DNA of 21,001 nt from a virus: positions 1 through 21,001 of IMG/VR virus record IMGVR_UViG_3300044797_000055. The stretch is one strand, 5' to 3'. Both the position numbers and the translations under genes were made by a program. Each line of letters starts with the position of its first letter. The stretch's first letter is position 1. Below, piece after piece: positions 1 through 19,852 of the stretch. The notes under the pieces were generated by a model, which saw only the letters and a list, made by a program, of their open reading frames with translations, made no database searches and was not told the DNA's origin.

Positions 1-1597
1 CTCCAGCAGCTAGAGCTTGAGCTGAATAACCATTAGCCATTACCGTGGCTCCTGTTCCAGTTGTAAGTACACGGAAGGTACAGGTCCAGTTACCGTTATA
101 AGCAGCTCCGGTTCCTGTAGCTGTATCCAGCATGTCACAAATAGGAGTAGGAACAGATGCAGTGTTAGTGACATTGGAATCCCATGCAACTATAACGTGG
201 GTGGAAGTATCACCACCATCCGTATAGGTAAACTTTCCGCTGACTCTAACTTCAGCACCAATATAGTTAAAGCATCCAGATGGTACTGTCCAACTAACCA
301 TGGGGTTGGGTACCGTGGTAGCCGATGATCCGTTAATACCACCAGAAGCAGATACTTGTACCATGTTTGCAGAAGACATCTGGCAGGCACCAACACGGCT
401 AGAGGGAACAAAAGCATAACTAACAGATGAATTAGTCATTGGATGTTGTGCTGTAATGGTAGCTGCGGTAGTGGCAAGAATAGGATAGTCCATTGCGGTA
501 TTGACAGGATAAGTGGTAATTTGACTGCCACCCTTGGTGAATAGAGCATCGGCACCGTATGTGGAAGCTGCCTGACCGTAAGTGGCATTGGCAACGGCAC
601 AGGCAGGGGTAATAGTTTCAAGAGTGGTTAAGGTACAATTAGTTGAAGTGGAAGGAATCTGATAGGCAAGAGCATAAGTACCACCAGACAAGGACAGGTA
701 TACTACATATCCTACTGCACCTGCCGATGCTGCCGGTGCCGCCACGTCAATAGCCTTGGATGCGACAGAGGTAAAGACAGTGGAAGCAGCAGAACACGGA
801 CCTTCATTACCCATGATGTCCACGTAGGCGACACAGCCATACAAGTTACCGCTCCAGGATGCTGAACCTGCCACGGTAGCGTCAGAACAGAATTGGTGAG
901 TGCTGTCACAAGCTGCTTGAGCTGTAAGTGTGGTGGGTACTGCTAGTGCTAGACCAGTGGGAGTAGGTAGCCAGTTACGTGGCGATCCGCTTCTCACGTC
1001 CAGTATGGTTACAGTGGGATATCCAACCACAAGAGCGTTAATCATGGCACTGGTGCCACCTAGAGCCGTCCAAGCTGCATCCACCACCACTTGACCGCCA
1101 CCGGCAGCATAAGCAGCAGCAAGAGCACTGGAAAGACCAAATGTACCGTCAGTAACAATGGCACTTTGACCGTGAGTATTGGCAAAGGTTCCGGTAAGAG
1201 TAGCACAAATAGGAGTACCACCAATACCAAGGTTACCAGGAGGACAAGTAACATAGCTAATTGCCGTCATGGCTGTAGCGGTTTCAGCGTTACCATCCTG
1301 AATAAGTGGAGCATTCAATAGCACTGAGTTCCATGCTATTTGAACTGCTATGGGTGTACCATCTAGCATAGCTGTAGGTGGAGTAACGGTAATGGAAGTA
1401 CCTGATCCAGTGGTAGTATTTCCACTAATAATAGTGGAATGCCAGGTGGAATAGGCACTGGCATAGAACATACCTCCAACGTGAGATAGCGGAGAGGCAT
1501 TACCAGGAATTTGCTGAGCACTGATAGGGATATTACCAATACCAAGAATCCCAAGTGCTAGTACTATTGATAGTGCTATTACCAAGAACTTCTTCAT
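1..1597 (-). CDS. Large secreted virion-surface-like protein with signal peptide (partial, runs off left edge)
   Basis: An uninterrupted minus-strand frame starts at ATG 1597 and stays open to the window edge, giving at least 532 residues with no stop. A good Shine-Dalgarno (AAAAGGAG) lies 10 bases before the ATG. The N-terminus is a textbook Sec signal peptide: MKK, a hydrophobic core rich in I/L/V/A, then a likely cut after ISA before QQ near residue 27. The rest is Gly/Thr/Ser/Ala-rich and probably beta-structured, with spaced cysteines that could form disulfides after export. A segment near residues 140-190 (DGTFGLSSALAAAYAAGGGQ and the following VVVDAAW) resembles structural proteins seen in phage contigs. 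I recognise no catalytic motif. The frame is seen directly; a role as an exported virion or adhesin protein is inferred from the signal peptide and the terminase operon context. Confidence 0.8.
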   Translation of the reverse strand, partial: MKKFLVIALSIVLALGILGIGNIPISAQQIPGNASPLSHVGGMFYASAYSTWHSTIISGNTTTGSGTSITVTPPTAMLDGTPIAVQIAWNSVLLNAPLIQDGNAETATAMTAISYVTCPPGNLGIGGTPICATLTGTFANTHGQSAIVTDGTFGLSSALAAAYAAGGGQVVVDAAWTALGGTSAMINALVVGYPTVTILDVRSGSPRNWLPTPTGLALAVPTTLTAQAACDSTHQFCSDATVAGSASWSGNLYGCVAYVDIMGNEGPCSAASTVFTSVASKAIDVAAPAASAGAVGYVVYLSLSGGTYALAYQIPSTSTNCTLTTLETITPACAVANATYGQAASTYGADALFTKGGSQITTYPVNTAMDYPILATTAATITAQHPMTNSSVSYAFVPSSRVGACQMSSANMVQVSASGGINGSSATTVPNPMVSWTVPSGCFNYIGAEVRVSGKFTYTDGGDTSTHVIVAWDSNVTNTASVPTPICDMLDTATGTGAAYNGNWTCTFRVLTTGTGATVMANGYSAQALAAG

Positions 1598-1678
1598 TTT
1601 ATATAAGCTCCTTTTAGTTTTGTTTAACAGTTTAATGCCTTTCATTTCAGTGTCCTCGTGGTGAAGCGGCAAAACACT

Positions 1679-1996
1679 TTAGAAATCCATTCCCATCTCG
1701 TCACCATCATTATCACTGGTGACATGCTGACCTACAGGTTGACCTACAGGTTGACCACCACCTTCACCGTAGTGTTCGTGAACGTGAGATGCAATACCTT
1801 CTGCATCGCCAGATTCATGTTCATGGTGTTCAGGTGGCATGTGGTGGTGCATAATATGAACGTGTACTTTACTACCATCATGGTGAATGTGAATATGAGG
1901 TGGACGATGCTGACCGGATTTATCGGCCACGTCACCTGAACTTTCACCACTTTGACCTGACATATGTGATTGTCTTTGCTTATTCATTGAATACAT
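1679..1996 (-). CDS. Histidine-rich acidic small protein
   Basis: This 105-residue protein starts at ATG 1996, with AAAGGAG five bases upstream. It contains 18 histidines, clustered in residues about 33-75 as alternating H-I-H-I-HH, H-V-H-V-H and HHH/EHHEHE stretches. Many Asp, Glu, Gly and Ser residues surround them, and there is no hydrophobic core or membrane segment. Near the C-terminus a GQPV unit repeats, encoded by two exact 12-bp DNA repeats (1729-1740 and 1741-1752). Alternating-His sequences commonly bind Zn, Ni, Cu or Co, so metal binding is plausible but not shown. The gene sits between the HiPIP-like gene and the left-edge secreted protein in the same orientation. A long frame on the opposite strand is a shadow. 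Confidence 0.7.
   Translation of the reverse strand: MYSMNKQRQSHMSGQSGESSGDVADKSGQHRPPHIHIHHDGSKVHVHIMHHHMPPEHHEHESGDAEGIASHVHEHYGEGGGQPVGQPVGQHVTSDNDGDEMGMDF
1729..1752. repeat. 12-bp direct repeat, two copies
   Basis: GACCTACAGGTT occurs twice in exact tandem, and a GACC start of a third unit follows. On the minus strand each unit reads as GQPV-type codons near the end of the His-rich protein and contains a GGTCAA hexamer like the large arrays at 14.7-15.2 kb. Confidence 0.85.
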
Positions 1997-2006
1997 TATA
2001 GCTCCT

Positions 2007-2228
2007 TTAATTATCCCTCTCCCATCTCTTACACCAATCTACCGGACGAATAGGATTATTAACAGCCTCACAACGAGGTATATGGGCACGTATATAGTGA
2101 GCACACCCAGAACAAGACTTGCCAGGGTGACGAGAAGGATGCTCATAATTAACCTGGCTATGATCCAATTTCTCATCATCCTGCCGCTCATGTTGGGATA
2201 ATGCCCTTTCTATAGCACCCTTAGACAT
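2007..2228 (-). CDS. HiPIP-like four-cysteine small protein
   Basis: This 73-residue protein has cysteines at 39, 42, 53 and 66 (C-x2-C-x10-C-x12-C) followed by W69. The segment CSGCAHYI ... RCEAVNNPIRPVDWCKRW follows the pattern of high-potential iron-sulfur proteins, whose four cysteines (C-x2-C-x13-16-C-x13-C, with a Gly/Asp-Trp-Cys end) hold a 4Fe-4S cubane. The second spacing is shorter than in classical HiPIPs, so an iron-sulfur or zinc-binding knuckle are both possible. The first 36 residues are charged and probably disordered. Its ATG (2228) overlaps the stop of the upstream gene by one base (TAATG), so translation is probably coupled. A virion or regulatory role is unknown. Confidence 0.72.
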   Translation of the reverse strand: MSKGAIERALSQHERQDDEKLDHSQVNYEHPSRHPGKSCSGCAHYIRAHIPRCEAVNNPIRPVDWCKRWERDN

Positions 2229-2467
2229 TACGGCATTTTCCTGAAACCATCAGTAGCTTCTAGCACGGCACGTCTTTGGGGCCATGACATACCACGTAAA
2301 GGTCTATTATGGTTACGTTTCTCTACAGGTACATCTGCCAATGTCTCTATCACTTTACCTTCATCATCACGTTTGGTGACAAAGTGACGTTCCAAGTCTT
2401 TAATACGGATATCAAGATTCTTTACTTTGGTATCGTACTCTTCACGGCTAATCCACGGCCAATTCAT
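2228..2467 (-). CDS. Small charged hypothetical protein, probable short coiled coil
   Basis: A 79-residue protein that I do not recognise. Residues about 9-30 (EEYDTKVKNLDIRIKDLERHF) have heptad-like spacing of V/L/I/L and alternating charge, consistent with a short coiled coil. The C-terminal half is Arg/Asn/Pro-rich (residues about 50-70, with SWPQRRAVLEA). The start ATG 2467 overlaps the stop of the HTH gene by ATGA, and its own stop overlaps the next start, so it sits in a translationally coupled chain. There is no signal peptide, no membrane segment and no cysteines. Confidence 0.68.
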   Translation of the reverse strand: MNWPWISREEYDTKVKNLDIRIKDLERHFVTKRDDEGKVIETLADVPVEKRNHNRPLRGMSWPQRRAVLEATDGFRKMP

Positions 2468-2649
2468 TTTGCACCTGCCTTATTCAGAGCACGGTGTATA
2501 GTACGTTCACTGGTAGAGAACCTAATAGCTAAGTCCTTGATCTTTATACCCATCATTTTCAACTTGGCTATATTATCAGCCTTATCCATTACAGAATCAA
2601 AATTAGTCTTTCTTAAGTTAGGACTAGGTTCATATGCCTGTGGCATCAT
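2464..2649 (-). CDS. Small helix-turn-helix protein
   Basis: About 61 residues. The C-terminal half (about residues 30-60, MGIKIKDLAIRFSTSERTIH followed by RALNKAG) reads as a helix-turn-helix: a first helix ending in KDLAIRF, a short STSE turn, and a recognition helix RTIHRAL. This is the pattern of resolvase/Mor-type and small phage HTH proteins. ATG 2649 and ATG 2646 are both possible; AGGTG lies just upstream and better fits 2646. A GTG at 2652 is in frame but unlikely. It could regulate this operon, or bind the palindromes described elsewhere, but nothing in the sequence ties it to a site. Confidence 0.7.
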   Translation of the reverse strand: MMPQAYEPSPNLRKTNFDSVMDKADNIAKLKMMGIKIKDLAIRFSTSERTIHRALNKAGAK

Positions 2650-2747
2650 CACACCTGCCTTATAGATTTACCTTCAAATATATCTGCAAGTGGCATTGGT
2701 AATACTTTCATGTGATTTACAATATCATTACCGTATATATGTAGCAT
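2649..2747 (-). CDS. Possible 32-aa protein coupled to the HTH gene
   Basis: A short frame from ATG 2747 encodes 32 residues beginning MLHIYGNDIV. It ends with TGA overlapping the ATG of the HTH gene (TGATG), the same coupling used by its neighbours. The frame stays open upstream of the ATG and into the fibronectin gene out of frame, with no other ATG and no clear Shine-Dalgarno. It may be the remnant of a longer gene whose 5' part was replaced when the fibronectin cassette arrived. Weakly supported. Confidence 0.35.
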   Translation of the reverse strand: MLHIYGNDIVNHMKVLPMPLADIFEGKSIRQV

Positions 2748-2818
2748 CGTAATTGGACTACATTGTACAGTAAATGAAAACCCGCCCAGTATTCCATACC
2801 CATTGGGACTCAAAGGTG

Positions 2819-3217
2819 TTACTGAGCCACTACACTGAGTCCCGTTGGAGGGTTTGGATTTGCCGGAATCGTCCCGTTCACTACATTGGACGGTCCGCTA
2901 TATGCACTCCCAAGTACAGCGTCCACTTCATAATAATATGTAGTTCCAACTGTTACTGATGTATCTGTATAGGTCAATACATTAATATTAGATGCAACAG
3001 CAGTAAATGGCCCTGCCGCTGTTGTTGCCCGATACACTGTATATGTGACTCCAGCAGTAGTGGAAGCCGTCCACGTCAAGACTGATTCTGGTGTGGTGGC
3101 CGCTGGTCCGGTAGATGCTTGCGCAGAAGCGTTAGGGGTAAAAATCCCCACCGACGCAAGGGCCAAGATTGCAAATGTGCACCATAATCTAAGGCTATTT
3201 TGTAACAGTCTAAACAC
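2819..3217 (-). CDS. Secreted fibronectin type III domain protein
   Basis: From GTG 3217 the protein is 132 residues with a well-shaped signal peptide: MFRLLQNSLRLW, a hydrophobic core CTFAILALASVGIF, and ASA before Q at about residue 32. One fibronectin-III module follows (about residues 38-125), with the typical VLTWTAS, VTYTVYRAT, YTDTSVTVGTTYYYEVDAV and SNVV strands. The sequence stops at PPTGLSVVAQ, which looks like the first strand of a second module, so the protein seems cut short. The frame is open back to ATG 3307, where AAAGGAG sits at ideal distance. That start would give a 44-residue basic extension and would overlap the zinc-ribbon gene over most of its metal-binding part. I prefer GTG for the signal peptide, but the start is uncertain. 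Confidence 0.68.
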   Translation of the reverse strand: MFRLLQNSLRLWCTFAILALASVGIFTPNASAQASTGPAATTPESVLTWTASTTAGVTYTVYRATTAAGPFTAVASNINVLTYTDTSVTVGTTYYYEVDAVLGSAYSGPSNVVNGTIPANPNPPTGLSVVAQ

Positions 3218-3315
3218 ATTGGTATTGAATTTACAGAATGACTTTTTTCCTTCCTTTTTTTCTTTCCTAATATTTGTGCTATTGCTGGCTTTTTGCAGTG
3301 ATAACATTTTCTCAT
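3076..3315 (-). CDS. Small zinc-ribbon protein, C-terminus probably replaced
   Basis: 79 residues beginning MRKCYHCKKPAIAQI, with a CLDC knuckle at about residues 34-37. The two CxxC pairs, separated by a Lys-rich stretch, are typical of phage zinc-ribbon proteins. The start overlaps the upstream stop (ATGA at 3315-3312), and AAAGGAG touches the ATG, so initiation may depend on coupling. Residues after about 46 become Arg/Pro/Leu-rich (LRRWGFLPLTLLRKHLPDQR) and look like an out-of-frame reading of the fibronectin signal-peptide gene. I infer that the original gene ended near residue 46 and that the tail is a recombination by-product. Confidence 0.6.
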   Translation of the reverse strand: MRKCYHCKKPAIAQILGKKKRKEKSHSVNSIPMCLDCYKIALDYGAHLQSWPLRRWGFLPLTLLRKHLPDQRPPHQNQS

Positions 3316-3626
3316 CTCCTTTTAGTCCCAATCTCTAGTGCTATCTCCCAAGCCATCTGCCCAATTCGTTTCTCTCCACGTGGCAATCCAAAGATATTGT
3401 TAGCTTTCATTGTAATTTCATGCCATTGTTCAGGATACCGTATCTTCATTACCCGTATTAGTGTCATAGTAATCAAATTATGCCGACTAATCTTGTGTTT
3501 AGGTCCAAGTGGAAAGTAAGTCTCTGAACCTTTACATATCTTGTCATAAATATATCCACGTTCGCGTTTGAGCCAATCGCGGGCTGTGGCCTCCATCCAG
3601 TGCTGCCGCTTGGAATATGGGATCAT
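3312..3626 (-). CDS. Hypothetical basic cytoplasmic protein
   Basis: 104 residues, not recognised. It is helical-looking and basic, with an aromatic-rich N-terminal part (MIPYSKRQHWMEATARDW) and a middle part containing HNLITMTLIRVMKIRYPEQW. It has no signal peptide, which separates it from the secreted proteins on both sides. Both ends overlap neighbours by ATGA (3626-3623 and 3315-3312), so it belongs to the same translational chain. Codon choice and the A+T-rich look match the phage backbone rather than the G+C-richer genes just upstream. Confidence 0.72.
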   Translation of the reverse strand: MIPYSKRQHWMEATARDWLKRERGYIYDKICKGSETYFPLGPKHKISRHNLITMTLIRVMKIRYPEQWHEITMKANNIFGLPRGEKRIGQMAWEIALEIGTKRR

Positions 3627-3901
3627 TGTACATTAAGTGTTATTGTCACTACTCCTGTTTGTCCATTTACACTGGTTACTCCACCTAATTGCGCGTAAGG
3701 TGCTCCGGCAATTGAAATCCATAGACCATCAGAGGCAAAACAGTATTGGGTTAGTCCACTGGCATTAAGAGTGCAAACAGTGTGCAAACCTTGAACTTCC
3801 ATCTGGAACGGGGCACTGGTAATAACGCTCTGACCCTTGACAAGTTTGTAGCCTGCCAGGAGAGCGAGTAGCGTCAGAAGGACTATGGTGAATGTTTTCA
3901 T
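3623..3901 (-). CDS. Secreted or membrane-anchored fibre-tip-like protein
   Basis: 92 residues. The N-terminus MKTFTIVLLTLLALLAGYKL is a signal peptide or anchor, with a possible cut after VKG before QS. The C-terminus GGVTSVNGQTGVVTITLN carries the VxSVNGQTGxVT motif that is widespread in phage tail-fibre and baseplate proteins. Two cysteines (about 43 and 54, HTVCTLNASGLTQYC) could form a disulfide after export. ATG 3901 overlaps the stop of the 976-aa gene (ATGA). The pairing of a fibre motif with an export signal is odd, since tail fibres normally assemble in the cytoplasm. Confidence 0.74.
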   Translation of the reverse strand: MKTFTIVLLTLLALLAGYKLVKGQSVITSAPFQMEVQGLHTVCTLNASGLTQYCFASDGLWISIAGAPYAQLGGVTSVNGQTGVVTITLNVQ

Positions 3902-6828
3902 TGTTTACCTGCCAATAGCAAGCCTAATTTAACCGGCGCAAATGGGATTTCCGGGTTGATATATGTCAAAGCAAATGAAGATACGTCGCCAGCATTGTTG
4001 GTTTGATATCCAATCCCGGTAAGGTCGAAGGATATCAGACCCAATGACGGACTTATCCCCGTTTGTTTGTAGGTGTAAGGCTGGTTCGCGCCAACGAGAG
4101 CACCTGGATCGAACGCTCCCTGATTCACGCCATTCACGTAAATATATTCCGCATCGAGGCCAGAACCCACCACGGTACCGAGATTGTAGGTTGCGTTATA
4201 GATTCCCACCGGAACGTGAATGTTAATCTTGTAGTCATTCGAGGTTTGGCTAGATGCGTAGTGATTGTTAAAAAGCTGGTAGTCGGTGAACGACGGAGAG
4301 AACACTTGATTCTGGCAGCATCCTTGATATGACGGAGCATTGGATGCTCCTATTCCGAACCCGCCTTTCCAGAACTTTCCATTTGAATCAATGAAATCGG
4401 TTGTAGCCTGAACCATCGCAATGTCGTTCAAAGGGAAAATGTAAATCAGCATTTGCTTTGACACGGCGGCATCTACGGTGCTCGTGACGACTACCGTTGC
4501 TGTAACGGGAGCGGTGAGTGATGCTGGGGGCGTATATAATCCTCCGCTTGTCAGCGTTCCTCGGATGCTTGTTCCACCGCTGCCCTTAAATGTCATAACC
4601 GATATACCCGCACCGTTTTGGGAAGAAAAACTGGCGGATGCCGTAATTCCGGTTTGTGTAGCTGTAAAGATAGAATCCTCTGTGGCAACGCCCTGAAAAC
4701 CACCATCGGAGGGCTCTAAGAAATTTGTCGCAGGCTGACCGGCAATACTTCCTGGTGTAATGGCATAACCCTGAAGGTTGGCAATAGCTGCAATGGCAAC
4801 TTCATTGCTTCCGGTGGTTGTAAAAGAATTTGATGTGATCGACGTTTGACCCGTTGCACTGCTTGTAAAAGGGGTCGGTACCACGTCCACCGTAATTGTC
4901 GCGCCGTTTGGATTGTATTCACGGACGTTAATAGATGAGTAAGTTTGCCCGGAAGAATAATTGGCGGTCCAGATGTTGCTCGAACATCCGGTGATACTGG
5001 TAAGATACCATACAGAAAATCCCCCTCCACTTGGAACCGTGAAGTCTGCCGCCGTTTCGTGCGTGTAATTGTTTCCGCATACATCTGTTACTGATGTGGC
5101 TGCATAAGCGACAATAATATAAACGAAATCCCCGGTAATCGAGGTAACGGCTTGGGTCGTAGATATCGTGCTTGAATTTGCTACAGTTGCCGTGGCAACG
5201 AGATTTTGAGGAAGGATAGTTCCCGCCGACTGCGGAGAGGTCCAGGTAACCCCACCATTGCTATAAGCAACAAGTTGCTGCTGCGGGGTGCTGGCAGCGA
5301 TGTAGTATTGATTATTTTGCACATCGACGGCAGTGCCCATGACAGCCACGTTCGTCGAGGCCGATCCGGTTGAAGCTGTGTAAGTGACCACTTCTCCGGT
5401 CGTTGTCGCGCCCGAAGTTGAGGATTCCTCAAGACTCGATTCGTCTATAGCCTCCCAATTTGAGGTAGCGATGCTTGCGCCGTTGATCTCCCGCATGGCA
5501 TTCGCTGCCGTCAGGCTCATGTCATCGTAGGACACGCCGATTTGCCAGCCGTAGCCTCCATCCGTAGTGATAACGCCGTAATTCTGCATTGCGGTTAGAA
5601 GAATCTGGGCGCAGGGCGAGAAGGTCGAGATGTTGAATGACGAGTTGAGGATGAATCGCTGGCCGTAGAAATTCACGCCCGCTCCGGCATTGGCGCTCGT
5701 CGTGGCGGGCCAGAGATTAGCATTGTGCATATAGCCATTTTGCAACGTGATCGACATGGCGTGCGTGATAGCAGTGTTGTTGGCGCAGGCCGCCGACACT
5801 TCATCTCCGCGCAGCATCAAGGGAGCGATTTGATTTCCGGCGGCGGTGGTTGAAACGGACGGGAGCGCATAACTGTTATAGGCGTATTCGATACCACTAA
5901 TCGAATTGCACGTTCCCGCTGGACCGCATACTCCCGTGTCGCCGGAGCTTGACGATCCCGCCGTCACCGCACCCGTCGTCGTGGTGGATGCAGCAGCGTG
6001 AACGAGCGGAAAAGTGATCGTGTTCGCCGTGGCTGAGGTTAGCTGGACCGGATTGAGATTGCACCAGGTATCCGCCCCTGTGAAACTGCCGATGGTCACA
6101 TACGCGCCCGCCGCCGCCGCCCGTTGGAATCCGGCAGATGTCGGCGTTGTTGTGAATGTGGCGGTCGCGCTTCCAGAGCCGTTTGCAACGCAGCTTGTCA
6201 CCGGAGCTTGCGCGAAATACTGGTATCTCTCCCAGATGTTCCCCGTATCGGTTCCCACGTCGATTTCGTGGTGGTCTGCATTGCCGTTTCCTGAGATCGC
6301 ATCGAACCAGCCGTTTTGAATGTTGACTTGAGGCCAAACAGGATCAGGGAAATAGGCACTCGGTGCGCCGTAATAAAACACCAAGTAGTTTGTCGGCGTC
6401 GAAGCGGTGACGTAATTCAGGCCCATGTCTGGGAAGAAGTTTATAGGGATAGTTCCCGCGCCTCCGACGAAGGTTGCGGAGCTTTGAGTACAATGTGTCG
6501 TACCATTGCAAACTGGCAGGCCGGATACTTTCGTGTTGTAAACATGGTCCCAGGGAAGAAGGGGATACCCACCAATGGAACTTGGCGCGGCAAGCGTGGT
6601 CGGTGGAGTGTAGACGCCTGTCGAGGAATTGATGCTTCCAAGGCACGTTCCGCCATTCGCCGCGTTTGCACAAGCCCACGATGAACCCGTACCACAATTC
6701 GTCGCACAGCTAAACGTTACCGTTGATCCGCTTGGAGTAGCGACAGGATTGGTCGGGGTGATTGTAGGTGTCTGTGCCTGTGCGGAGAGCGCGGCGAGTG
6801 TGAACGCGGCTAGGAGAAGTGCTCTCAT
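3898..6828 (-). CDS. Large secreted multidomain protein (Ig-like, jelly-roll, malectin-like)
   Basis: 976 residues with signal peptide MRALLLAAFTLAALSAQA cut before QT. Domain order by eye: Ig-like segment (about 20-75, with SSTGVYTPPTTLAAP); a long domain (about 85-460) with NADHHEIDVGTD and LRGDEVSAACANNTAITHA, resembling secreted proteins I associate with Acidobacteriota; a jelly-roll segment (about 540-750) like the 254-aa neighbour; a second Ig-like segment (TSGGLYTPPASL); a malectin-like carbohydrate-binding region (about 805-955, with DSNGKFWKGG, NDYKINIHVPVG and EYIYVNG); and the tail APVKLGLLLAGKQ. Two related Ig motifs flank the middle. The start overlaps the upstream stop by ATGA. 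Base use is G+C-richer than the phage backbone, suggesting transfer from a host. A role in binding cell-surface glycans or matrix is an inference. Confidence 0.85.
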   Translation of the reverse strand: MRALLLAAFTLAALSAQAQTPTITPTNPVATPSGSTVTFSCATNCGTGSSWACANAANGGTCLGSINSSTGVYTPPTTLAAPSSIGGYPLLPWDHVYNTKVSGLPVCNGTTHCTQSSATFVGGAGTIPINFFPDMGLNYVTASTPTNYLVFYYGAPSAYFPDPVWPQVNIQNGWFDAISGNGNADHHEIDVGTDTGNIWERYQYFAQAPVTSCVANGSGSATATFTTTPTSAGFQRAAAAGAYVTIGSFTGADTWCNLNPVQLTSATANTITFPLVHAAASTTTTGAVTAGSSSSGDTGVCGPAGTCNSISGIEYAYNSYALPSVSTTAAGNQIAPLMLRGDEVSAACANNTAITHAMSITLQNGYMHNANLWPATTSANAGAGVNFYGQRFILNSSFNISTFSPCAQILLTAMQNYGVITTDGGYGWQIGVSYDDMSLTAANAMREINGASIATSNWEAIDESSLEESSTSGATTTGEVVTYTASTGSASTNVAVMGTAVDVQNNQYYIAASTPQQQLVAYSNGGVTWTSPQSAGTILPQNLVATATVANSSTISTTQAVTSITGDFVYIIVAYAATSVTDVCGNNYTHETAADFTVPSGGGFSVWYLTSITGCSSNIWTANYSSGQTYSSINVREYNPNGATITVDVVPTPFTSSATGQTSITSNSFTTTGSNEVAIAAIANLQGYAITPGSIAGQPATNFLEPSDGGFQGVATEDSIFTATQTGITASASFSSQNGAGISVMTFKGSGGTSIRGTLTSGGLYTPPASLTAPVTATVVVTSTVDAAVSKQMLIYIFPLNDIAMVQATTDFIDSNGKFWKGGFGIGASNAPSYQGCCQNQVFSPSFTDYQLFNNHYASSQTSNDYKINIHVPVGIYNATYNLGTVVGSGLDAEYIYVNGVNQGAFDPGALVGANQPYTYKQTGISPSLGLISFDLTGIGYQTNNAGDVSSFALTYINPEIPFAPVKLGLLLAGKQ

Positions 6829-8531
6829 CGTTTACCTGCCAAGAGCAAGCCTAATTTGACCGGAGCTGGATTATTGGGAATCGCACTTGGCACATACGCG
6901 CCAATTGTTGCCCCGCAAGTCGTTTGCGGTCCTGTGACAACATTTAGCGGCCAAGACGATGTTGGAAGCAAGACTTGATTGTAAATTCCACCCAAAACAA
7001 CCCCCGCGCAGATCGCTAGAGAGGTCGCTGTCAGTGTTAGATTATCAATGCTTTGATTCGTGAATGCCGGATCGCTCTCCATTGAATGCGAGCATCCCGT
7101 TGTGCCGCAATTTCCGCTCGCCGCTTCCCATGTAGCATAAGTGGAATAGTTCGTGGTACAAGCCCAGACCATGAAATTCGTCGATGCCACACCAAGGCCG
7201 TTATAATCATAAACATTCCCAGATCCATACGTGCCATCATTGTTTCCGCCGCCGCAAGTACTGATGGAATAAGACCCATTTCCTAGAATTAGATTATTCT
7301 CAATCAGGTTATTGGAGACAATATTGCTGGCCGACTCATCTCCCACGACATAAGCGCCGCCAACGGTATTTCCATAAATCGTATTATTGTAGACCAAATT
7401 ATTGCTGGCTGCAGTCGAATCGTGGGCGTCGATCTGTAGTCCTTCATTGTTCCCAAACACTACATTTCCGTAGACTTTTACGCCACTCGTTATTTCAATG
7501 AAAATTCCGATGGCACTGTTTCCCCAAATTTGATTATAGGAAATCACGGTCCCGGTCGATTGGCAATCCAGCCATATACCCATACCTGTATCCGAGTAAT
7601 CCTGTGCTCCATTCTGATAAATGTAGTTTTCAGTGATTGTCAGGCCGGAAGTGGTCATTCCCGTCGAGCACGTTCGAATCCCGCCGCTGAAAGCAATGTT
7701 CTGCGTTCCGTTTCCGTAGATCGTGTTGTTGGCGAGCAGCGTTGTTGCGGTATAATCTCCAACCTCGATGCCGGATTCGCCGTTGTCAAATGCGGTCGAA
7801 TCGGTTATGGAATTATTCGATTCTGTCGGGCCCCCAGTTCCCTCCACATAGAATCCGAAAGTATAGCTATATGCAGCAGTCATTCCCGTCATCGTGACAT
7901 TGCTGGAATTGGAGTAAATGTCCGCGCCGGATGTATTTGAGTAAAGCGCCTGAAGATTCTCGATAATTAGATAGTTCTGGCTGAACGAGAAAATCAATCC
8001 ACTGATAACCGAGGCAACGAGCGTGTACCCCTGTGAACCAGGATTACCTGCACTTTCGTAGTAGTAGAGCGTCGTCCCGGTCGCATACCACTGCCCTTCC
8101 GTCAGTGCTCCTTCCGATGCAGCCTTGGTAGCCAATACGTTGTTTTTGAACAGTTGATTTGGCGTAGCCGAAACAGTCGCAACCCACACGTTGCCAGCGT
8201 AATTCGTCCAAGTGGGCGTAACGCCTCCGTTGAAAATCGGCGGTGCTCCTGTTCCATACGAGCCAATCGTGATGGGATTCCCGGAGGTTCCCGATTGCTC
8301 AACATAAACGATTTCATACCAAGTGCAACTACTTCGGAATAAAAGCGAATCACCAGGACTGAATGTGTGCGTGCGGGCATGAGCTGCGGTTAGCCATGGC
8401 GTCGATGTACTGGTTCCGTTGTTTGAATCACTTCCTACGGTTACGCAATTATCCACGTAATACGTTGCGGCGCGCGCTGGCAAGACAGATAACGCGGCAA
8501 CAAATAGAAGGAGTGAGAATAGTTTTTTCAT
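6825..8531 (-). CDS. Secreted right-handed parallel beta-helix protein
   Basis: 568 residues with signal peptide MKKLFSLLLFVAALSVLPARA cut before ATYYVDN. The opening block (TYYVDN, GTSTSTPW, FSPGDSLLFRSSCTW, GNPITIGSYGTGAPPIFNGG) is the usual start of secreted beta-helix proteins. From about 170 to 430 there are repeated Asn-rich rungs such as NNTIYGNG, ENYIYQNG, YNQIWGN, NNTIYGN and ENNLILGNG, the signature of pectate-lyase/tailspike-like solenoids. It ends in APVKLGLLLAGKR, shared with the 976-aa protein. The start follows the previous stop as TGACATG. A polysaccharide-binding or depolymerase role fits the fold, but catalytic residues cannot be assigned by eye. Confidence 0.85.
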   Translation of the reverse strand: MKKLFSLLLFVAALSVLPARAATYYVDNCVTVGSDSNNGTSTSTPWLTAAHARTHTFSPGDSLLFRSSCTWYEIVYVEQSGTSGNPITIGSYGTGAPPIFNGGVTPTWTNYAGNVWVATVSATPNQLFKNNVLATKAASEGALTEGQWYATGTTLYYYESAGNPGSQGYTLVASVISGLIFSFSQNYLIIENLQALYSNTSGADIYSNSSNVTMTGMTAAYSYTFGFYVEGTGGPTESNNSITDSTAFDNGESGIEVGDYTATTLLANNTIYGNGTQNIAFSGGIRTCSTGMTTSGLTITENYIYQNGAQDYSDTGMGIWLDCQSTGTVISYNQIWGNSAIGIFIEITSGVKVYGNVVFGNNEGLQIDAHDSTAASNNLVYNNTIYGNTVGGAYVVGDESASNIVSNNLIENNLILGNGSYSISTCGGGNNDGTYGSGNVYDYNGLGVASTNFMVWACTTNYSTYATWEAASGNCGTTGCSHSMESDPAFTNQSIDNLTLTATSLAICAGVVLGGIYNQVLLPTSSWPLNVVTGPQTTCGATIGAYVPSAIPNNPAPVKLGLLLAGKR

Positions 8532-8532
8532 G

Positions 8533-9297
8533 TCAATTGCACGTGTTGGACATATCGCATCCAGCCATTAAAGCACTGGGCGCTTTAAACGCCGCTATGG
8601 TTCCAGTCCAGTTGCCCGTATTCGCATTCGATATAGAGCCGGTAATCATGCTCTGTGTGGTCGTAACCGCCAAGTCTTCGCATCCAAATTTTGAAGAGGT
8701 CCCTAGGGTTGCACCATCTACTCCGCGAAGGGTAGCACCAGTACCGCCGATGGAACCGGCTGTAAATGCCCCCGCGGTAATTGTCCCGCCGCCGCACAGA
8801 ATGATTGTGTCCTTCGCATTTGTTGTGGTGATCGAGCCGGATGGAGGCACGGTAAATGTGCTAACAGTTCCGTTATTATATCCTCCCGACTGGACATCCA
8901 CTGGGCTCGTCATGGTTACAGTCGAGGGAGCATAATGCAGGACGATCATGGATTGAAAAGCACTGCTAACATTCGGCGTACAAGTAAACGTCGTCGAGCC
9001 TGAAGCCATGTTGGTGGCGTAGGAAAGCTGGACTTGATAGTCTCCCGAATCCGCCTGAAATGTTAATGTGTTGAAGGTATTTGACGGCGTGCTGCTTGCC
9101 GGATCGCCAGTTGTGGCGGCAGTGGAAGCGCACATCACGAGCACAAAATCACCACCGCTCATCGTGAGAGCCGGGCTGGTAATTGATGAAACGGAACCCA
9201 CGCCTGTGTTTGCGACGTAAGTATAATTCGTGAATCCGGCACGCGCAGGGAGCACGCAAAACAGGATATATGCAAGCATAAGAATGATTTTTTTCAT
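8533..9297 (-). CDS. Secreted jelly-roll-like protein
   Basis: 254 residues from ATG 9297; a start 12 bases upstream would only lengthen the n-region. Signal peptide MKKIILMLAYILFCVLPARA, cut before GFTNY. The body follows a beta-sandwich pattern seen repeatedly in secreted bacterial proteins: GGDFVLVMCAS, NTFNTLTFQADSGDYQVQLS, STTFTCTPN, MIVLHYAPSTVTM, TTTNAKDTIILCGGG, SKFGCEDLAVTTTQ and NWTGTIAAFKAPS. The same order of elements occurs in the middle of the 976-aa protein, so the two share a domain. Six cysteines suggest disulfides outside the cytoplasm. The previous gene's TGA lies one base before the ATG. The function is unknown; an adhesin-like surface role is inferred. Confidence 0.82.
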   Translation of the reverse strand: MKKIILMLAYILFCVLPARAGFTNYTYVANTGVGSVSSITSPALTMSGGDFVLVMCASTAATTGDPASSTPSNTFNTLTFQADSGDYQVQLSYATNMASGSTTFTCTPNVSSAFQSMIVLHYAPSTVTMTSPVDVQSGGYNNGTVSTFTVPPSGSITTTNAKDTIILCGGGTITAGAFTAGSIGGTGATLRGVDGATLGTSSKFGCEDLAVTTTQSMITGSISNANTGNWTGTIAAFKAPSALMAGCDMSNTCN

Positions 9298-9298
9298 G

Positions 9299-10138
9299 TC
9301 AATCCACAATCCAATAGTTGAAACACAAAGGATTACTTGAAAACGTTCCTAAATTGATAGTGAAACTGGTACTCGCCACCTGCGCGGCCAAACGCGGAGC
9401 AGTGAGTCCGGTATCAGAAGTTGTATTGCACGTCACGCCGATTTTCGTTCCAATGACCGTAGCTCCGACTGGCTGAATAAAGATATTGCTATTTGCCGTG
9501 ACCGCAGTCGTGTCCACCGTGCAGGTGCCGGTTGAAGCATTCGTCGCACAAGAAAATGATCCCGCAGGAGCCGCTGTGCAAGATACAACAGACGGATTCG
9601 CGCCCGTTCCGGCTGCCGCACAATTCGTCGTACTAGCTAAAAGCGGAAGTGTCACAGTTCCGGTAAACGTTGGAGAAGCAAGCGGAGCACATCCTGTACA
9701 GGCTGCTAATATTCCTGCTGCTGTATCAGGAATACCACTATCAGCAATCTGACCACCTGTGCCAGTGAAAGCAGCAAAATCAGTACTGGTAACTCCACTT
9801 GCAGGTCCAGTGGTTATACCTGCACCTGATCCAGCAAGGGCTTTAGAGGATGTAACGGTTGAGGCTGTGGCAGCAATAGCAACCTGTCCTGCCGTCATAC
9901 CAGATAATCCGCCACCACCAGCTCCTAATGCTGTCCAGGTGTTAGTAGCGGAACAATAATTAATAGTGAAAGGAGTAACCGATAGTTGGACAGATGCAGT
10001 GACACCAGGAGTACAAGTAGCGGCAAGGGCAGTAACGTAATTTAAGGTGCCACCAAAGTTCTGTTGTTGGGCATGTAATAGAAATGCTCCAATGGTGGCG
10101 AATACGAGTAATGCTATTAGTCGTTTAATATCCTTCAT
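9299..10138 (-). CDS. Tail-fibre-like protein with signal peptide
   Basis: 279 residues. The N-terminus MKDIKRLIALLVFATIGAFL ends in LHA before QQQ, a plausible Sec signal. The middle has phage appendage motifs: AGQVAIAATASTVTSSKALA, GGQIADSGIPDTA and LASPTFTGTVTLP, the last a hallmark of tail-fibre repeats. The C-terminal third is Cys-rich (SCTAAP, SCATN, TCTVD, VTCNTT, LCFNYWIVD). The DNA changes character inside the gene: the 5' part (about 9700-10138) uses A+T-rich, CTA/GGT/GTA-type phage codons, and the 3' part (about 9299-9690) is G+C-richer. A recombination joint within the fibre is therefore likely, a common way for phages to swap receptor-binding tips. Confidence 0.8.
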   Translation of the reverse strand: MKDIKRLIALLVFATIGAFLLHAQQQNFGGTLNYVTALAATCTPGVTASVQLSVTPFTINYCSATNTWTALGAGGGGLSGMTAGQVAIAATASTVTSSKALAGSGAGITTGPASGVTSTDFAAFTGTGGQIADSGIPDTAAGILAACTGCAPLASPTFTGTVTLPLLASTTNCAAAGTGANPSVVSCTAAPAGSFSCATNASTGTCTVDTTAVTANSNIFIQPVGATVIGTKIGVTCNTTSDTGLTAPRLAAQVASTSFTINLGTFSSNPLCFNYWIVD

Positions 10139-10140
10139 AA

Positions 10141-10626
10141 CTATCCTAACCTTGATATTTTCGCTGTCATTCCCACGGCATTACCGCCCACTGTACGTTG
10201 CAAACGAATGAATCTGCCCCCGGTCGGGGATAAGTCCGAGCGTGATACTGTTGCGGTGGCAGATGCAATGGTATAAGCAGCATTAGAAGGAGTAATATAG
10301 AAACCGTCAGCATCAGTGTCAGCTTCCTGTACAGCTACGGATTCACCAGTACCGGGAGCACCATTGTAATGAAGTTCCACTGATATTGAGGGTGCAGGAC
10401 CAGCACCTTGTCCAACTTGGATATTTACACTGGTACTGGATATGACGGCATTGGCTACCACACCAGTCGTTTCAAAAGTAACGTTAGTATCATTTACAGG
10501 TTCTTGGGTGAATGTGGTACCATGAGCACCAAATAAATATTCATAACTACCCTTGTCAAGATAATGACCTTGTTTATTATTTTGTACCCAAGTAAATGAA
10601 CCTGGAGTACCAGGATATAAAGACAT
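10141..10626 (-). CDS. Beta-rich virion-like protein downstream of terL
   Basis: 161 residues, no signal peptide, not recognised. It is Gly/Thr/Ser/Val-rich with predicted strands (TNVTFETTGVVANAVISS, SVNIQVGQG, SISVELHYNG, AYTIASATATVSRSD, RFIRLQRTVGGN), consistent with a small structural or decoration protein. The ATG (10626) directly follows the terL stop with no gap, so it is probably coupled to terL. Its stop is two bases before the fibre-like gene. In most tailed phages portal or head genes follow terL, so this position is unusual. Confidence 0.75.
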   Translation of the reverse strand: MSLYPGTPGSFTWVQNNKQGHYLDKGSYEYLFGAHGTTFTQEPVNDTNVTFETTGVVANAVISSTSVNIQVGQGAGPAPSISVELHYNGAPGTGESVAVQEADTDADGFYITPSNAAYTIASATATVSRSDLSPTGGRFIRLQRTVGGNAVGMTAKISRLG

Positions 10627-12297
10627 CTAGTTAACCATCCTTTCAGTAGGCCGCTGGATACGTCCAAGTCCACCACCACGGCCACGGCCACGTCTAATCT
10701 TCTCTAGTGCAGTAGCTCTACGGTTAAGTGAAGCTATAGTGTTGATATCCATATCTTCTACAGGTTTATTACGGGACTTGGCAAAGGCCAGGACTTTTTC
10801 GTGGACAGCTTCAACGATAGGTTGGGTACCGGCACGTTGACGTGACTTGAGAAGGTAACGGGCCGCATCCCAAGAATCATCACCATCGAACTTTTCTATC
10901 TCCATGGGATCATCTTCATCCGTGGTAATCATAGGGATAGTTTCGATGAGTTTAGTACAAGATGGGTCTATTTCTAGTTCCTCTGCCTTCATTAGTTCAT
11001 ACATGCACTGAGCGCCATGAATACGGCTATCATCGGCAGGAGTAGGGTAGGGCATATTATTGGCAGTGAAAATATCGCCCATCTGGGCAGCAAAAGAATC
11101 CTGTTCGGAACGTTTCTGGAAAGCGTCAGGGGAAAGGTAGATGGCATCAATCAGTTTACGTTCGGCAGGTTCAGTGCGGTCCACGATTTCCTGAGCCTGG
11201 GCGCGGGCAGAGTGGTGATTAGCCACAAGTTCACGGTAGATGCGGGTGACTTTGCCTACACGTGCGCCCCAGTAACAGGCCATAGGATGCTGAAATCCCC
11301 AATCTATGCCTAACCAGCGCGGGTGCCAGTCACGGTCAGGCAGGCACCGTTTCACGAACTTTTCAGGATTCCAGATATCATAGAACTGACCTGCAAATTC
11401 ATCCCAATTACCAAGTAGCCACCCAGTCCTTAATCTGGCAGGTAAGTTATCTAGCTCATGTCCACGCTGGGTATTGTTAATGAAGAACATGAACCGTTCG
11501 TCCAGTAATAGGTTCTTATTCTCCTTCATACCAGGCTTAATATCAGTGTGACCGTAAGAACAGATACCACCGAAATCCACTACTTTACGTCCATCTTCGT
11601 TTAAGCACCCATAATAGTCGCACTGGTCAAGTTTACGTTCGGCAAGGGCAGAGCGGACCCATTCCAGGTTGTCCCAGGCATAGGATGGGATAAAAGCATA
11701 ATCTTCGGCCCGTTCCTTGCCCATATATTCACGTTTATACATTAGTCTGCGGATATAGCTATGGCTAAGTCCACCAGGGTTCATGCCCCACACTGTCTTG
11801 CACATCTTGTCGGAAATGTGGCGACCATTAATTTTGCCAGTCCAGCGCCGCGTTTCGTTCAGTTTGACAAGCATCATTTCGGTGCAGCGCGTGGCCTCAT
11901 CCGCGAACACATCCATGTATTCCTTACCTTGAAAATCGTTAATGTCCTCTTCATGTTCCGAATAGCCAAACACTATTCTGGACATAGGATTAGTAGGGAT
12001 GTACAGGGTCTTTTCACTGGACCGCCACCATTCGCGCATAAACGGCCACATGCGGAAATAGATACCCTCAAGCATAGTGTCGCGGAGTTGATTCCACTTG
12101 CGCCGGAACAAGAGTCCGGTAGTGCCAGGGTATTTCATTCTCCTTAATAGCATTATATTGGCGATAGCATGGGTCTTGGCAGAACCCTTACTACCACCAA
12201 TACCAATAATAGAAGGGCCGTTACGGTTCTCTACCATACGTAATAGTTCACGTTGCTTGGGGAAGAAAGAGAATGAGATATTGGCAGGGATAGACAC
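10627..12297 (-). CDS. terL: Terminase large subunit (packaging ATPase-nuclease)
   Basis: 556 residues. It powers and cuts DNA during packaging at the portal. The ATPase domain has Walker A GGSKGSAKT (34-42), an FQGKEYMDVFADEAT segment with Walker B and catalytic Glu134, and a coupling-like MNPGG at 172-176. The linker LRTGWLLGNWDEFAGQFYDI precedes the RNase H-like nuclease: acidic Asp332 in LGIDWGFQHP, Asp391 in YLSPDAF, and a C-terminal acidic cluster GDDSWDAARYLL. All key acidic residues appear present. It starts at GTG 12297, which overlaps the TAG of the preceding gene by one base (TAGTG). A Gly/Arg-rich tail (RRGRGRGGGLGR) may bind DNA. Length is normal for the family. Confidence 0.95.
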   Translation of the reverse strand: MSIPANISFSFFPKQRELLRMVENRNGPSIIGIGGSKGSAKTHAIANIMLLRRMKYPGTTGLLFRRKWNQLRDTMLEGIYFRMWPFMREWWRSSEKTLYIPTNPMSRIVFGYSEHEEDINDFQGKEYMDVFADEATRCTEMMLVKLNETRRWTGKINGRHISDKMCKTVWGMNPGGLSHSYIRRLMYKREYMGKERAEDYAFIPSYAWDNLEWVRSALAERKLDQCDYYGCLNEDGRKVVDFGGICSYGHTDIKPGMKENKNLLLDERFMFFINNTQRGHELDNLPARLRTGWLLGNWDEFAGQFYDIWNPEKFVKRCLPDRDWHPRWLGIDWGFQHPMACYWGARVGKVTRIYRELVANHHSARAQAQEIVDRTEPAERKLIDAIYLSPDAFQKRSEQDSFAAQMGDIFTANNMPYPTPADDSRIHGAQCMYELMKAEELEIDPSCTKLIETIPMITTDEDDPMEIEKFDGDDSWDAARYLLKSRQRAGTQPIVEAVHEKVLAFAKSRNKPVEDMDINTIASLNRRATALEKIRRGRGRGGGLGRIQRPTERMVN

Positions 12298-12683: not shown

Positions 12684-12741
12684 GATTAGTGACTATTCAC
12701 TTTCACTGTAACGTGTCTTGTCATGATTAGTGACTATTCAC
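12660..12741. repeat. Exact 41-bp tandem duplication
   Basis: Copy one is 12660-12700 and copy two 12701-12741, identical base for base; a nine-base start of a third unit (one mismatch) follows. Each unit carries the last codons and stop of terS and the start codon with first eight codons of the 128-aa gene. Because 41 is not a multiple of three, the extra copy is out of frame and stops quickly. Confidence 0.95.
12686..12724 (-). CDS. Putative 12-residue leader peptide created by the duplication
   Basis: In the upstream copy of the 41-bp repeat, ATG 12724 reads MTRHVTVKVNSH and then TAA, two bases before the ATG of the 128-aa gene. It shares its first eight residues with that gene. Either it is a harmless by-product or it couples translation from terS into the 128-aa gene. 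Confidence 0.4.
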   Translation of the reverse strand: MTRHVTVKVNSH

Positions 12742-13150
12742 TTTCATTGACAGTGTTCGCGTTATTGATAGTGATATTGAGACTAGACTGTACTTGCTCT
12801 TCCTTGGGATACAATTGCATTAGCTTGGCACATTCCTTCGCTGCTGCTAGTCTAGTGCTGTTGTCGACCACTTCCATAGTATCGGTGATCTTTCCCTCAT
12901 AGCTCGCGGTAATGGTACTGGTCGCATTCATTAGCGGCAGGAAGTAGTCGCGCACAAAATTCTCAGGCGTTAAACTTAGCTTGTCCATTGCTGCCAGTAA
13001 ACGTTTTCTGGTACTGACAATAGCATTGCTACCGGACTTCACGGAACTATAACCTACTGCAAGTGCCGATTCTCCAATAGGTTCCCCCATTAACACTTTT
13101 TTGAGTAATGCTCGCCGTTTTAGCGATAAAGGTAATGTATTCGTAGACAT
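12734..13150 (-). CDS. terS: Probable terminase small subunit
   Basis: 138 residues. The N-terminal half (KRRALLKKVLMGEPIGESAL and AVGYSSVKSGSNAIVSTRKR) reads as a DNA-binding HTH region. It is followed by LTPENFVRDYFLPLMNAT and, after GKITDTMEVVDN, by STRLAAAKECAKLMQLYPK, a pattern I know from small terminase subunits of the HTH type. Small subunits recognise the packaging site and recruit the large subunit. It is the first gene of the leftward operon, two genes before terL, which supports the call. No Shine-Dalgarno precedes ATG 13150, and the candidate -10 lies only about 10 bases upstream, so the message may be leaderless. Confidence 0.75.
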   Translation of the reverse strand: MSTNTLPLSLKRRALLKKVLMGEPIGESALAVGYSSVKSGSNAIVSTRKRLLAAMDKLSLTPENFVRDYFLPLMNATSTITASYEGKITDTMEVVDNSTRLAAAKECAKLMQLYPKEEQVQSSLNITINNANTVNESE

Positions 13151-14452: not shown

Positions 14453-14713
14453 ATGAAACGTATCATTGAATCCGAGGAACTATCGGGACTGGAAGCCCTG
14501 ATAGGTGAAACTGTATTGTTAATGTGCGCCAACTATTTCTACACTGGCAAACTCACAGGCGTGAACGAAACGTGTGTAACGCTGGAATCTCCCGCTATCG
14601 TGTACGAGACAGGAGAATGGTCCAGTAAACAATACAATAATGTCCAGAAACTACATACAACAAAATGGTATGTACGTATTAATGCCATTGAGTCGTTTGG
14701 GATAAGTAAATAA
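14453..14713 (+). CDS. Small beta-barrel-like phage protein (86 aa)
   Basis: ATG 14453 with CTGGAG six bases upstream. 86 residues. The segment LIGETVLLMCANYFYTGKLT and GVNETCVTLESPAIVYETGEW has the alternating strands and 'function of adding a modification/bulge' spacing typical of small SH3- or Sm-like barrels found in phage early regions. A second strand pair (KWYVRINAIESFGI) closes it. I have seen this pattern in phage proteins of unknown function; no activity can be assigned. The stop overlaps the next ATG by one base (TAATG), so the repeat-protein gene is coupled to it. Confidence 0.75.
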   Translation: MKRIIESEELSGLEALIGETVLLMCANYFYTGKLTGVNETCVTLESPAIVYETGEWSSKQYNNVQKLHTTKWYVRINAIESFGISK

Positions 14714-14952
14714 TGGATGATCTACGAAATCGGTATAGACGCCGGATCATATTACGGTCATGGTTAGGGTCATGGTCAGGGTCAGGGTCAAGGTCATGGT
14801 CAAGGGCAGGGTCAGGGTCAAGATCATGGTCATGGTCAAGGTTAGGGTCATGGTCAGGGTCATGGTCAGGGCCAGGGTTAGGGTCAAGGTCAGGGTCAGG
14901 GTCAGGGTCATGTTCAAGGTCAAGGTCATGGTCAGGGTCATGGTCAAGGTGA
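14713..14952 (+). CDS. Ser-Gly/Trp/Arg dipeptide-repeat protein, copy 1
   Basis: 79 residues. The basic head MDDLRNRYRRRIILR is followed by 32 hexamer units read as Ser-Xaa dipeptides (SW, SG and SR, with a few L, A or P). The start overlaps the stop of the 86-aa gene (TAATG). The next gene repeats the same head and design, which favours real translation. All frames through a hexamer array tend to stay open, so coding is not certain. If made, the protein would be disordered, basic and Trp-rich, with an RS-like nucleic-acid-binding character. No family recognised. Confidence 0.5.
   Translation: MDDLRNRYRRRIILRSWLGSWSGSGSRSWSRAGSGSRSWSWSRLGSWSGSWSGPGLGSRSGSGSGSCSRSRSWSGSWSR
14758..14949 (+). 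repeat. GGTCAN hexamer array, 32 units
   Basis: An unbroken run of 32 hexamers in TCANGG register (TCATGG, TCAGGG and TCAAGG, with occasional TTAGGG, CCAGGG and GCAGGG). Base four is T, G or A but never C in this copy. No unit is deleted or inserted. GGG-N3-GGG stretches, for example 14869-14925, could form G-quadruplexes on this strand. Confidence 0.95.
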
Positions 14953-14956
14953 AAAA

Positions 14957-15181
14957 ATGACGGACTTACGAAATCGGTATAAGCGCCGATCTAGGTCAAA
15001 ATCACGGATATGTTTATGGTCAGGGTCAGGGATAGGGTCACAGTCAGGGTTAGGGTCATGGTTAGGATCACGGTCACGGTTAGGGTCAGGATCAAGATTA
15101 GGGTTAGGGTCAGAGTCAGGATTAGAGCCAGGATCATGGTTATGGTCAGGATTAGGAATAGGGTCATGGTCAGGGTCATAG
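14957..15181 (+). CDS. Ser-Gly/Trp/Arg dipeptide-repeat protein, copy 2
   Basis: 74 residues, starting five bases after the stop of copy 1. The head MTDLRNRYKRRSRSKSRI matches copy 1 (M-x-DLRNRY-x-RR), then a more degenerate Ser/Leu-Gly/Trp/Arg dipeptide repeat follows (WSGSGIGSQSGLGSWLGSRS and on). The head is encoded outside the hexamer array, so its conservation argues for a duplicated gene rather than a chance frame. The greater divergence suggests copy 2 is older or less constrained. Function unknown. Confidence 0.5.
   Translation: MTDLRNRYKRRSRSKSRICLWSGSGIGSQSGLGSWLGSRSRLGSGSRLGLGSESGLEPGSWLWSGLGIGSWSGS
14990..15178 (+). repeat. GGTCAN hexamer array, degenerate second copy
   Basis: About 31 hexamers in the same register as the first array, with more variants (TCACGG, TTAGGA, TCAGAG, ATAGGG). 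It ends in GGGTCATAG, where TAG stops the reading frame. Confidence 0.9.
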
Positions 15182-16488: not shown

Positions 16489-16595
16489 CTAGAATTGAAA
16501 AGGTAATCATCTTAGCTGCCCTTACCGTGGGCCTGGCCCTGGGATGGGCTATCAGCGCATGGGGTCCGGTACTATTTGGATGGCCGCTACAGTGA
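16485..16595 (+). CDS. Small single-pass membrane protein (36 aa)
   Basis: ATG 16485 overlaps the previous stop (ATGA). MTRIEKVIILAALTVGLALG, then WAISAWGPVLFGWPLQ: a short charged head and one long hydrophobic helix with Gly/Ala/Trp. It could be a holin-like, superinfection-exclusion or membrane-anchoring peptide. The operon position among early genes, without an endolysin nearby, argues against a classical lysis cassette. It is the last rightward gene before a convergent region. Confidence 0.6.
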   Translation: MTRIEKVIILAALTVGLALGWAISAWGPVLFGWPLQ

Positions 16596-16599
16596 CAGT

Positions 16600-16635
16600 T
16601 TCATTTCTATAGAAATACAGTTTCCATGGAAATAC
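16600..16635. promoter_or_regulatory. Double palindrome operator module, copy 1
   Basis: ATTTCTATAGAAAT (16603-16616, perfect palindrome) and TTTCCATGGAAA (16621-16632, perfect palindrome), centres 17 bases apart. The 36-base module recurs exactly at 16769-16804. It lies in the gap between convergent genes, where a promoter is not expected. Confidence 0.65.
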
Positions 16636-16739
16636 CCTGGTACTGCTAAGTCCTTTGTTAGCGACAGTCAGAGAGTTAACCTAGTAATATATATAAAGAA
16701 AAGTAGAAAGAGCGAAGAGCGCCCTACCAAATCTAAAGG

Positions 16740-16764
16740 ACTTACGGTTCAAGCGCATGTTTTT
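16740..16764 (-). repeat. Duplicated 3' end of the RepA-like gene
   Basis: A 25-base sequence identical to 16805-16829, which holds the last codons and stop of the leftward ATPase gene. This copy lies beyond the gene and is non-coding, so it records a short duplication or recombination. Confidence 0.8.
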
Positions 16765-16768
16765 CCTC

Positions 16769-16804
16769 TTCATTTCTATAGAAATACAGTTTCCATGGAA
16801 ATAC
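16769..16804. promoter_or_regulatory. Double palindrome operator module, copy 2
   Basis: Exact second copy of the 36-base module at 16600, with palindromes at 16772-16785 and 16790-16801. It sits three bases after the stop of the leftward ATPase gene, between the two copies of that gene's tail. Confidence 0.65.
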
Positions 16805-16806
16805 AC

Positions 16807-19468: not shown

Positions 19469-19510
19469 ACGTATAGTATACTATTAGCACCACTATAGGA
19501 GGTGGTGATT

Positions 19511-19849: not shown

Positions 19850-19852
19850 CAC

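Follow-up and report, generated by a model that had tools for sequence, protein, structure and literature searches.

The host-attachment appendages of an uncultured lineage of Acidobacteriota phages may be exported by the Sec pathway, oxidised in the periplasm and joined to the particles at lysis, a reading to which we give an even chance. The window analysed here, 21,001 bases long, is a complete IMG/VR record and a linear fragment of a phage genome. An earlier note described in it seven proteins with export signals and offered three explanations, namely an exported surface coat, a system that modifies the host matrix, or a virion built with periplasmic parts. The last of these fits best, because in relatives of this phage a signal precedes a tailspike-type anchor domain, the gene occupies the spike slot, and complete genomes encode no signal-free spike; an exported coat or matrix role keeps some probability. 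Since the window is a fragment, it lacks the terminal spike and the portal side, and statements on those parts rest on relatives. Particle assembly in tailed phages is regarded as a cytoplasmic process, and we know of no tailed phage with an export route for its host-attachment spikes.

Export signals in the window

All seven open reading frames are present and lie downstream of terL as described, and both reported tail-fibre motifs were recovered (Table 1). Leftward, the gene order runs from a likely small terminase through a small protein, terL and a conserved 161-aa protein to the signal-bearing proteins. Signals were predicted by heuristic scoring of the n-, h- and c-regions combined with the -3/-1 rule; at the threshold score of at least 5, 10 of 10 known E. 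coli signals were found and 0.5% of shuffled proteins passed, and about 0.03 signals are expected by chance per seven proteins. By this heuristic, the features of Sec/signal peptidase I substrates (positive n-region, hydrophobic h-region, small residues at -3 and -1) are clear in five of the seven, three of which have Gln at +1. The textbook signals attributed to all seven are therefore firm for five, while that of 2819-3217 depends on a GTG start without a clear ribosome site and that of 3623-3901 is weak, with a Lys in the c-region. Relatives of the former protein in L023, L091 and G003 carry clear signals. The six full-length proteins contain 0, 2, 16, 10, 6 and 10 cysteines in their mature parts (signal cysteines subtracted), all of them even numbers. 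PHROG and Pfam scans of the seven yielded almost nothing beyond the Beta_helix match of 6825-8531, a protein for which searching found no relatives.

Table 1. Leftward genes of the window; the arrow marks the predicted cleavage site and is followed by the signal score
Feature	Position	Strand	Signal, score	Remarks
Probable small terminase subunit (by position)	12734..13150	-		first leftward gene of the packaging module; homologues in the same place in G002 and G004; no PHROG match
Terminase large subunit (terL)	10627..12297	-		PHROG terminase, E=9e-24; 60-73% identity in relatives
Small conserved beta-type protein (161 aa) between terL and the fibre slot	10141..10626	-	without signal; 0 of 13 homologues scored	homologues in G001-G004 and others
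Fibre-like protein	9299..10138	-	LHA↓QQQNF, 6.0	LASPTFTGT motif; 10 mature Cys; mature start QxQNF common to fibres of G001, G003 and G010; weak K1-lyase_C match, E=0.004
Predicted exported beta protein	8533..9297	-	ARA↓GF, 6.8	6 mature Cys
Predicted exported right-handed beta-helix protein	6825..8531	-	ARA↓AT, 6.9	Pfam Beta_helix, 1.5e-14; C-terminus APVKLGLLLAGKR
Predicted exported large modular protein	3898..6828	-	AQA↓QT, 6.3	C-terminus APVKLGLLLAGKQ; relative at 74% identity lies within a longer protein, also with a signal, of another phage (L192)
92-aa protein	3623..3901	-	4.8, below threshold	fibre motif VTSVNGQTG
Fn3-like small protein	2819..3217	-	6.3, only with start at GTG 3217	
His-rich conserved small protein	1679..1996	-	without signal	homologues in G001, G002 and G004
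SPbig, predicted conserved exported protein	2..1597	-	PISA↓QQ, 6.1	directly upstream of portal in relatives; truncated by contig end

The two largest of the predicted exported proteins share nearly the same C-terminal peptide (APVKLGLLLAGKQ/R), and the DNA that encodes it (3898-3942 and 6825-6869) doubles as the stretch immediately before the next start codon; proteins in G004 and L192 have looser versions of the peptide at their C-terminus. We also weighed APVKLGLLLAGK as a dedicated sorting signal at the C-terminus but do not claim it, since its occurrences, in two window proteins and loosely in two relatives, are too few. Elsewhere in the window, two adjacent short ORFs (14713-15181) consist nearly entirely of Gly, Ser, Trp, Leu and Arg in tandem (GSWSGSGSRSW...), both beginning with a similar MxDLRNRYxRR. 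At 16576-16900, sequence encoding FYRNTVSMEI / FISIEIQFPWKY is apparently repeated in overlapping frames, perhaps as an interspersed repeat.

Relatives in phages and in Acidobacteriota chromosomes

A search with terL led to four related contigs, and the capsid protein of one of these extended the set to 26. Five relatives, 45-50 kb long, end in direct repeats of 97-127 bases, which marks them as probably complete genomes. INPHARED contained no relatives of the capsid, portal, SPbig or spike. We regard the lineage as uncultured, podovirus-like soil phages of Acidobacteriota, a phylum that is among the commonest of soil bacteria and has few known phages. The common gene order is terL, 161-aa protein, one or more variable fibres, small proteins, His-rich protein, SPbig and portal, continuing with scaffold, capsid, tail proteins, internal virion proteins and spike; in each relative whose contig extends to this end, the spike gene lies behind those for the internal virion proteins. 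SPbig and the spike occur in nearly all relatives at fixed places, which is not the pattern of optional morons. The fibre cassette of the window is enlarged, with five to six signal-bearing genes versus one in G001 and none in G002 and G004, and its extra genes, which vary between relatives, could be morons. Several relatives also encode small signal-bearing proteins in separate clusters within their early, rightward arm, namely G001 (8376-9916), G002 (19265-20405) and G004 (19353-19865).

The terminal spike carries a signal in all 16 relatives scored (15 by score, G017 by eye), SPbig in 21 of 24, and the terL-side fibres in five of five. No signal was detected in terL (0/21), portal (0/24) or capsid (0/27), nor in any other core family apart from 4 of 22 scaffolds and 1 of 21 tail-tube-class matches, the latter being G011_24411, a separate signal-bearing protein encoded after the spike. 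The four scaffold genes (G011, G012, G017 and G022; for example, L034:8505-9878) encode a signal-like hydrophobic N-terminus, MFKHLILPWLLPIFGMFFSAGA, and no cysteine; scaffolds act inside the phage head, and the four that score imply that such N-termini need not all be export signals.

None of the five terminally redundant genomes encodes a low-charge fibre-like protein without a signal. When G001 and the window were added to these five, the only signal-free low-charge proteins of at least 150 aa were the tail-tube protein, an internal virion protein and a membrane protein, this survey counting as signal-bearing the G017 spike, which the score misses and whose signal is visible by eye. Because all fibre-like candidates bear signals, the receptor-binding proteins, if the particle has any, would have to come from the signal-bearing set, which is the main argument for a location in the virion.

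Relatives of the spike domain were found in ten GTDB contigs, all of them Acidobacteriota MAGs; the capsid alignment matched no GTDB genome. Several Acidobacteriota loci (contigs L135-L148 and L105-L134, all from MAGs; e.g. L137 and L139) contain a related virion cluster with terL, portal, scaffold, capsid, tail proteins and a spike, the predicted cleavage site of which reads A↓QGSRKDDI or similar. Within one Acidobacteriota family, 44 of the 89 species genomes carry the capsid gene, at a single location in almost all cases, against one of 247 genomes in a phylum-wide sample. In six divergent genomes, an NAD synthase gene with a DsbA-like gene beside it is located 17-29 kb downstream, and genes of the ferrochelatase, UbiA and isopropylmalate-dehydrogenase types flank several of the clusters. 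In several species, the cluster occupies this shared site next to housekeeping genes. The chromosomal capsids show a dN/dS of about 0.06-0.1. Judged from these sequences, the chromosomal cluster looks like one inherited vertically under selection, as in a gene transfer agent; to our knowledge, none has been described in Acidobacteriota. A gene for a DsbA/DsbC-like disulfide oxidoreductase (L176:9445-10356), conserved next to the cluster end in six genomes, may have a function for the exported spikes or simply happen to lie there. The view that the opposite-strand genes of the chromosomal clusters are all real insertions was dropped, many of them being probably spurious reading frames in DNA of high GC content.

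The terminal spike and the pairing of cysteines

The anchor domain examined is that of the relatives' terminal spike, outside the present fragment, and not that of any window protein. The first ~105 residues after the predicted cleavage site form a conserved domain, modelled by AlphaFold with a pLDDT of 80. Foldseek searches of BFVD matched it to phage tail spikes, pectate-lyase-type proteins and EPS depolymerases (18 matches with E<=0.001, best 6e-6). Its best matches in the PDB include tail parts of Ur-lambda, XM1 and Pan3, and the head-binding domain of the P22 tailspike was matched with a TM of 0.46, none of these being significant alone. With hhalign, the spike profile aligned to the N-terminus of the annotated tail spike of E. 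coli phage ECO1230-10 (E=1e-5), a protein in which the matching domain begins at residue 1, without a signal. Similarly, a distant relative (L099/G027) has the same domain starting MNRFDG. It lacks a signal and has only two cysteines among its 335 residues, and its genome encodes three other fibre-like proteins that do bear signals; an anchor domain that can start in this way does not need a helix before it. From these two signal-free proteins, the signal looks like an exact N-terminal addition, and the mature spike would begin directly with a domain resembling, in the predicted structure, the virion-anchor domains of tailspikes. Homology to the N-terminus of lambda Stf was not supported. Lectin- and lyase-like Foldseek matches of SPbig were dropped as evidence of function, its AlphaFold model being poor (pLDDT 52).

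Proteins exported in this manner could also act outside the virion, by coating or modifying the surface or matrix of the infected cell, by excluding other phages, or as free depolymerases or adhesins. Signals, disulfide-type cysteines, a beta-helix and carbohydrate-binding-like parts would all suit such roles, exported morons such as lambda Lom and Bor are found in other phages, and exported proteins without an assigned role are known from Porphyromonas phages (PMC10367356). This may well hold for some of the extra window genes, and those at 8533-9297, 6825-8531 and 3898-6828 may have other roles than attachment. As a reading of the whole set we find it unlikely, given the position of the spike behind the internal virion proteins, the tailspike anchor-like domain kept right behind the cleavage site, and the want of any other receptor-binding candidate in complete genomes.

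Spike cleavage sites were placed with a Gln-containing pattern, which all spikes with an intact 5' end fit; so placed, they have a small residue at -3 and Ala or Gly at -1 in every case, and Gln at +1 in 16 of 16. The hydrophobic part of the spike signal varies while the A/G↓Q motif is conserved, and an alignment of 18 SPbig sequences (31-73% identity to the first) has 14 invariant columns, the mature Gln among them. Gln is found at +1 in 33 of 76 predicted phage signals versus 4 of 26 in one Acidobacteriota genome, so that a Q-rule is not clear in the host.

Proteins that fold in an oxidising compartment would be expected to tend toward paired cysteines. Among mature signal-bearing proteins with a length of 200 aa or more, 37 have an even number of cysteines and 5 an odd number (p=2e-7), the even:odd ratio in core proteins without signal being 67:73; after removal of relatives with more than 30% identity, the ratios are 24:3 (p=2.5e-5) and 4:12, respectively. 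Within the spike anchor domain, cysteines are gained or lost in pairs between relatives. Cysteine makes up 1.8-2.6% and charged residues 6-7% of the signal-bearing families, compared with 0-1.6% and 12-34% in most core families. The export and disulfide formation that the earlier note had expected are thus supported by conservation of the cleavage site and by cysteine parity: on sequence grounds, the signal-bearing proteins are very probably exported in reality, and it is probable that they fold with disulfides in the periplasm.

Hydrophobic N-termini that stay uncleaved, whether to anchor the protein in a membrane or to form structural helices of the virion, would accommodate the charged residues located between the hydrophobic core and the cleavage site in the G017 and G022 spikes, as well as the atypical N-termini of some SPbig proteins. 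They would not account for a cleavage motif more conserved than the hydrophobic part before it, for cysteine parity, or for the G027 spike relative that starts at its anchor domain, and we consider this reading improbable. Misassigned start codons, or host genes joined in error to a phage contig, might be suspected from the fragmentary window and the unclear start of 2819-3217, but such an artefact is very improbable and largely refuted by the relatives, as the arrangement recurs in 26 contigs and in chromosomal clusters, with signals in frame with conserved mature domains.

Assembly route and comparison with known systems

In the periplasmic-parts route that we favour, the appendages (spikes, fibres and SPbig) would be made as precursors with Sec signals and cross the inner membrane, where signal peptidase I would cut them, leaving an N-terminal Gln in the main families. 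They would fold with disulfides in the periplasm, the head and tail tube being built in the cytoplasm, and at lysis the particle would meet the finished appendages, the N-terminal anchor domain of the spike docking on the tail. Finished P22 spikes can join spike-less particles in vitro, which makes docking at lysis physically plausible; we know of no carrier here that would take exported spikes onto a cytoplasmic particle. The likeness of the domain and the position of the gene suggest that exported spikes become attached to particles, for which we see equal chances either way. Somewhat more tentative is the wider proposal of a two-compartment virion assembly that is joined only at lysis and whose route is also kept by the GTA-like element of Acidobacteriota chromosomes. 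The arrangement suggests spikes that fold outside the cell interior and are joined to the particle last. If this is true, part of the virion matures outside the cytoplasm, which would explain the use of disulfide-stabilised spikes by a phage, and the combination of signal and anchor domain provides a simple genomic test applicable to other phages.

No tested fibre, spike or tail protein of the reference phages T7, P22, epsilon15, lambda, SP6 and phiKMV reaches the signal threshold, although one phiKMV fibre scored 4.96 from an internal Met, just below it. Those that pass are proteins known to be exported (Lom, Bor and Rz of lambda, and the Rz-like spanins of P22 and epsilon15) and three small proteins (one of T7, two of SP6). 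Lom and Bor are likewise phage-encoded with export signals, but these morons are accessory outer-membrane proteins, whereas the genes described here are conserved and belong to the packaging and tail modules. WceF of Pantoea stewartii has a tailspike-like fold behind a signal peptide; in contrast to the present proteins, it is a bacterial, Tat-exported biofilm enzyme and no phage gene (PMC7949094). In the literature on exported tail fibres, the only case found was that of Porphyromonas gingivalis phages, whose exported proteins follow the Bacteroidetes Q-rule (PMC10367356, PMC5837995). Those proteins, too, are phage-encoded Sec/SPI substrates with Gln at +1, but they comprise five genes of unknown function in one phage family, whereas here the candidates are spikes and fibres of Acidobacteriota phages. 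The closest likeness in position and fold is to P22-type and other podovirus tailspikes, which share the place at the end of the virion module, the N-terminal anchor-like beta domain and the beta-helix/pectate-lyase-type relatives; those spikes begin at the anchor domain without a signal, whereas here a Sec signal precedes it and the cysteines are paired.
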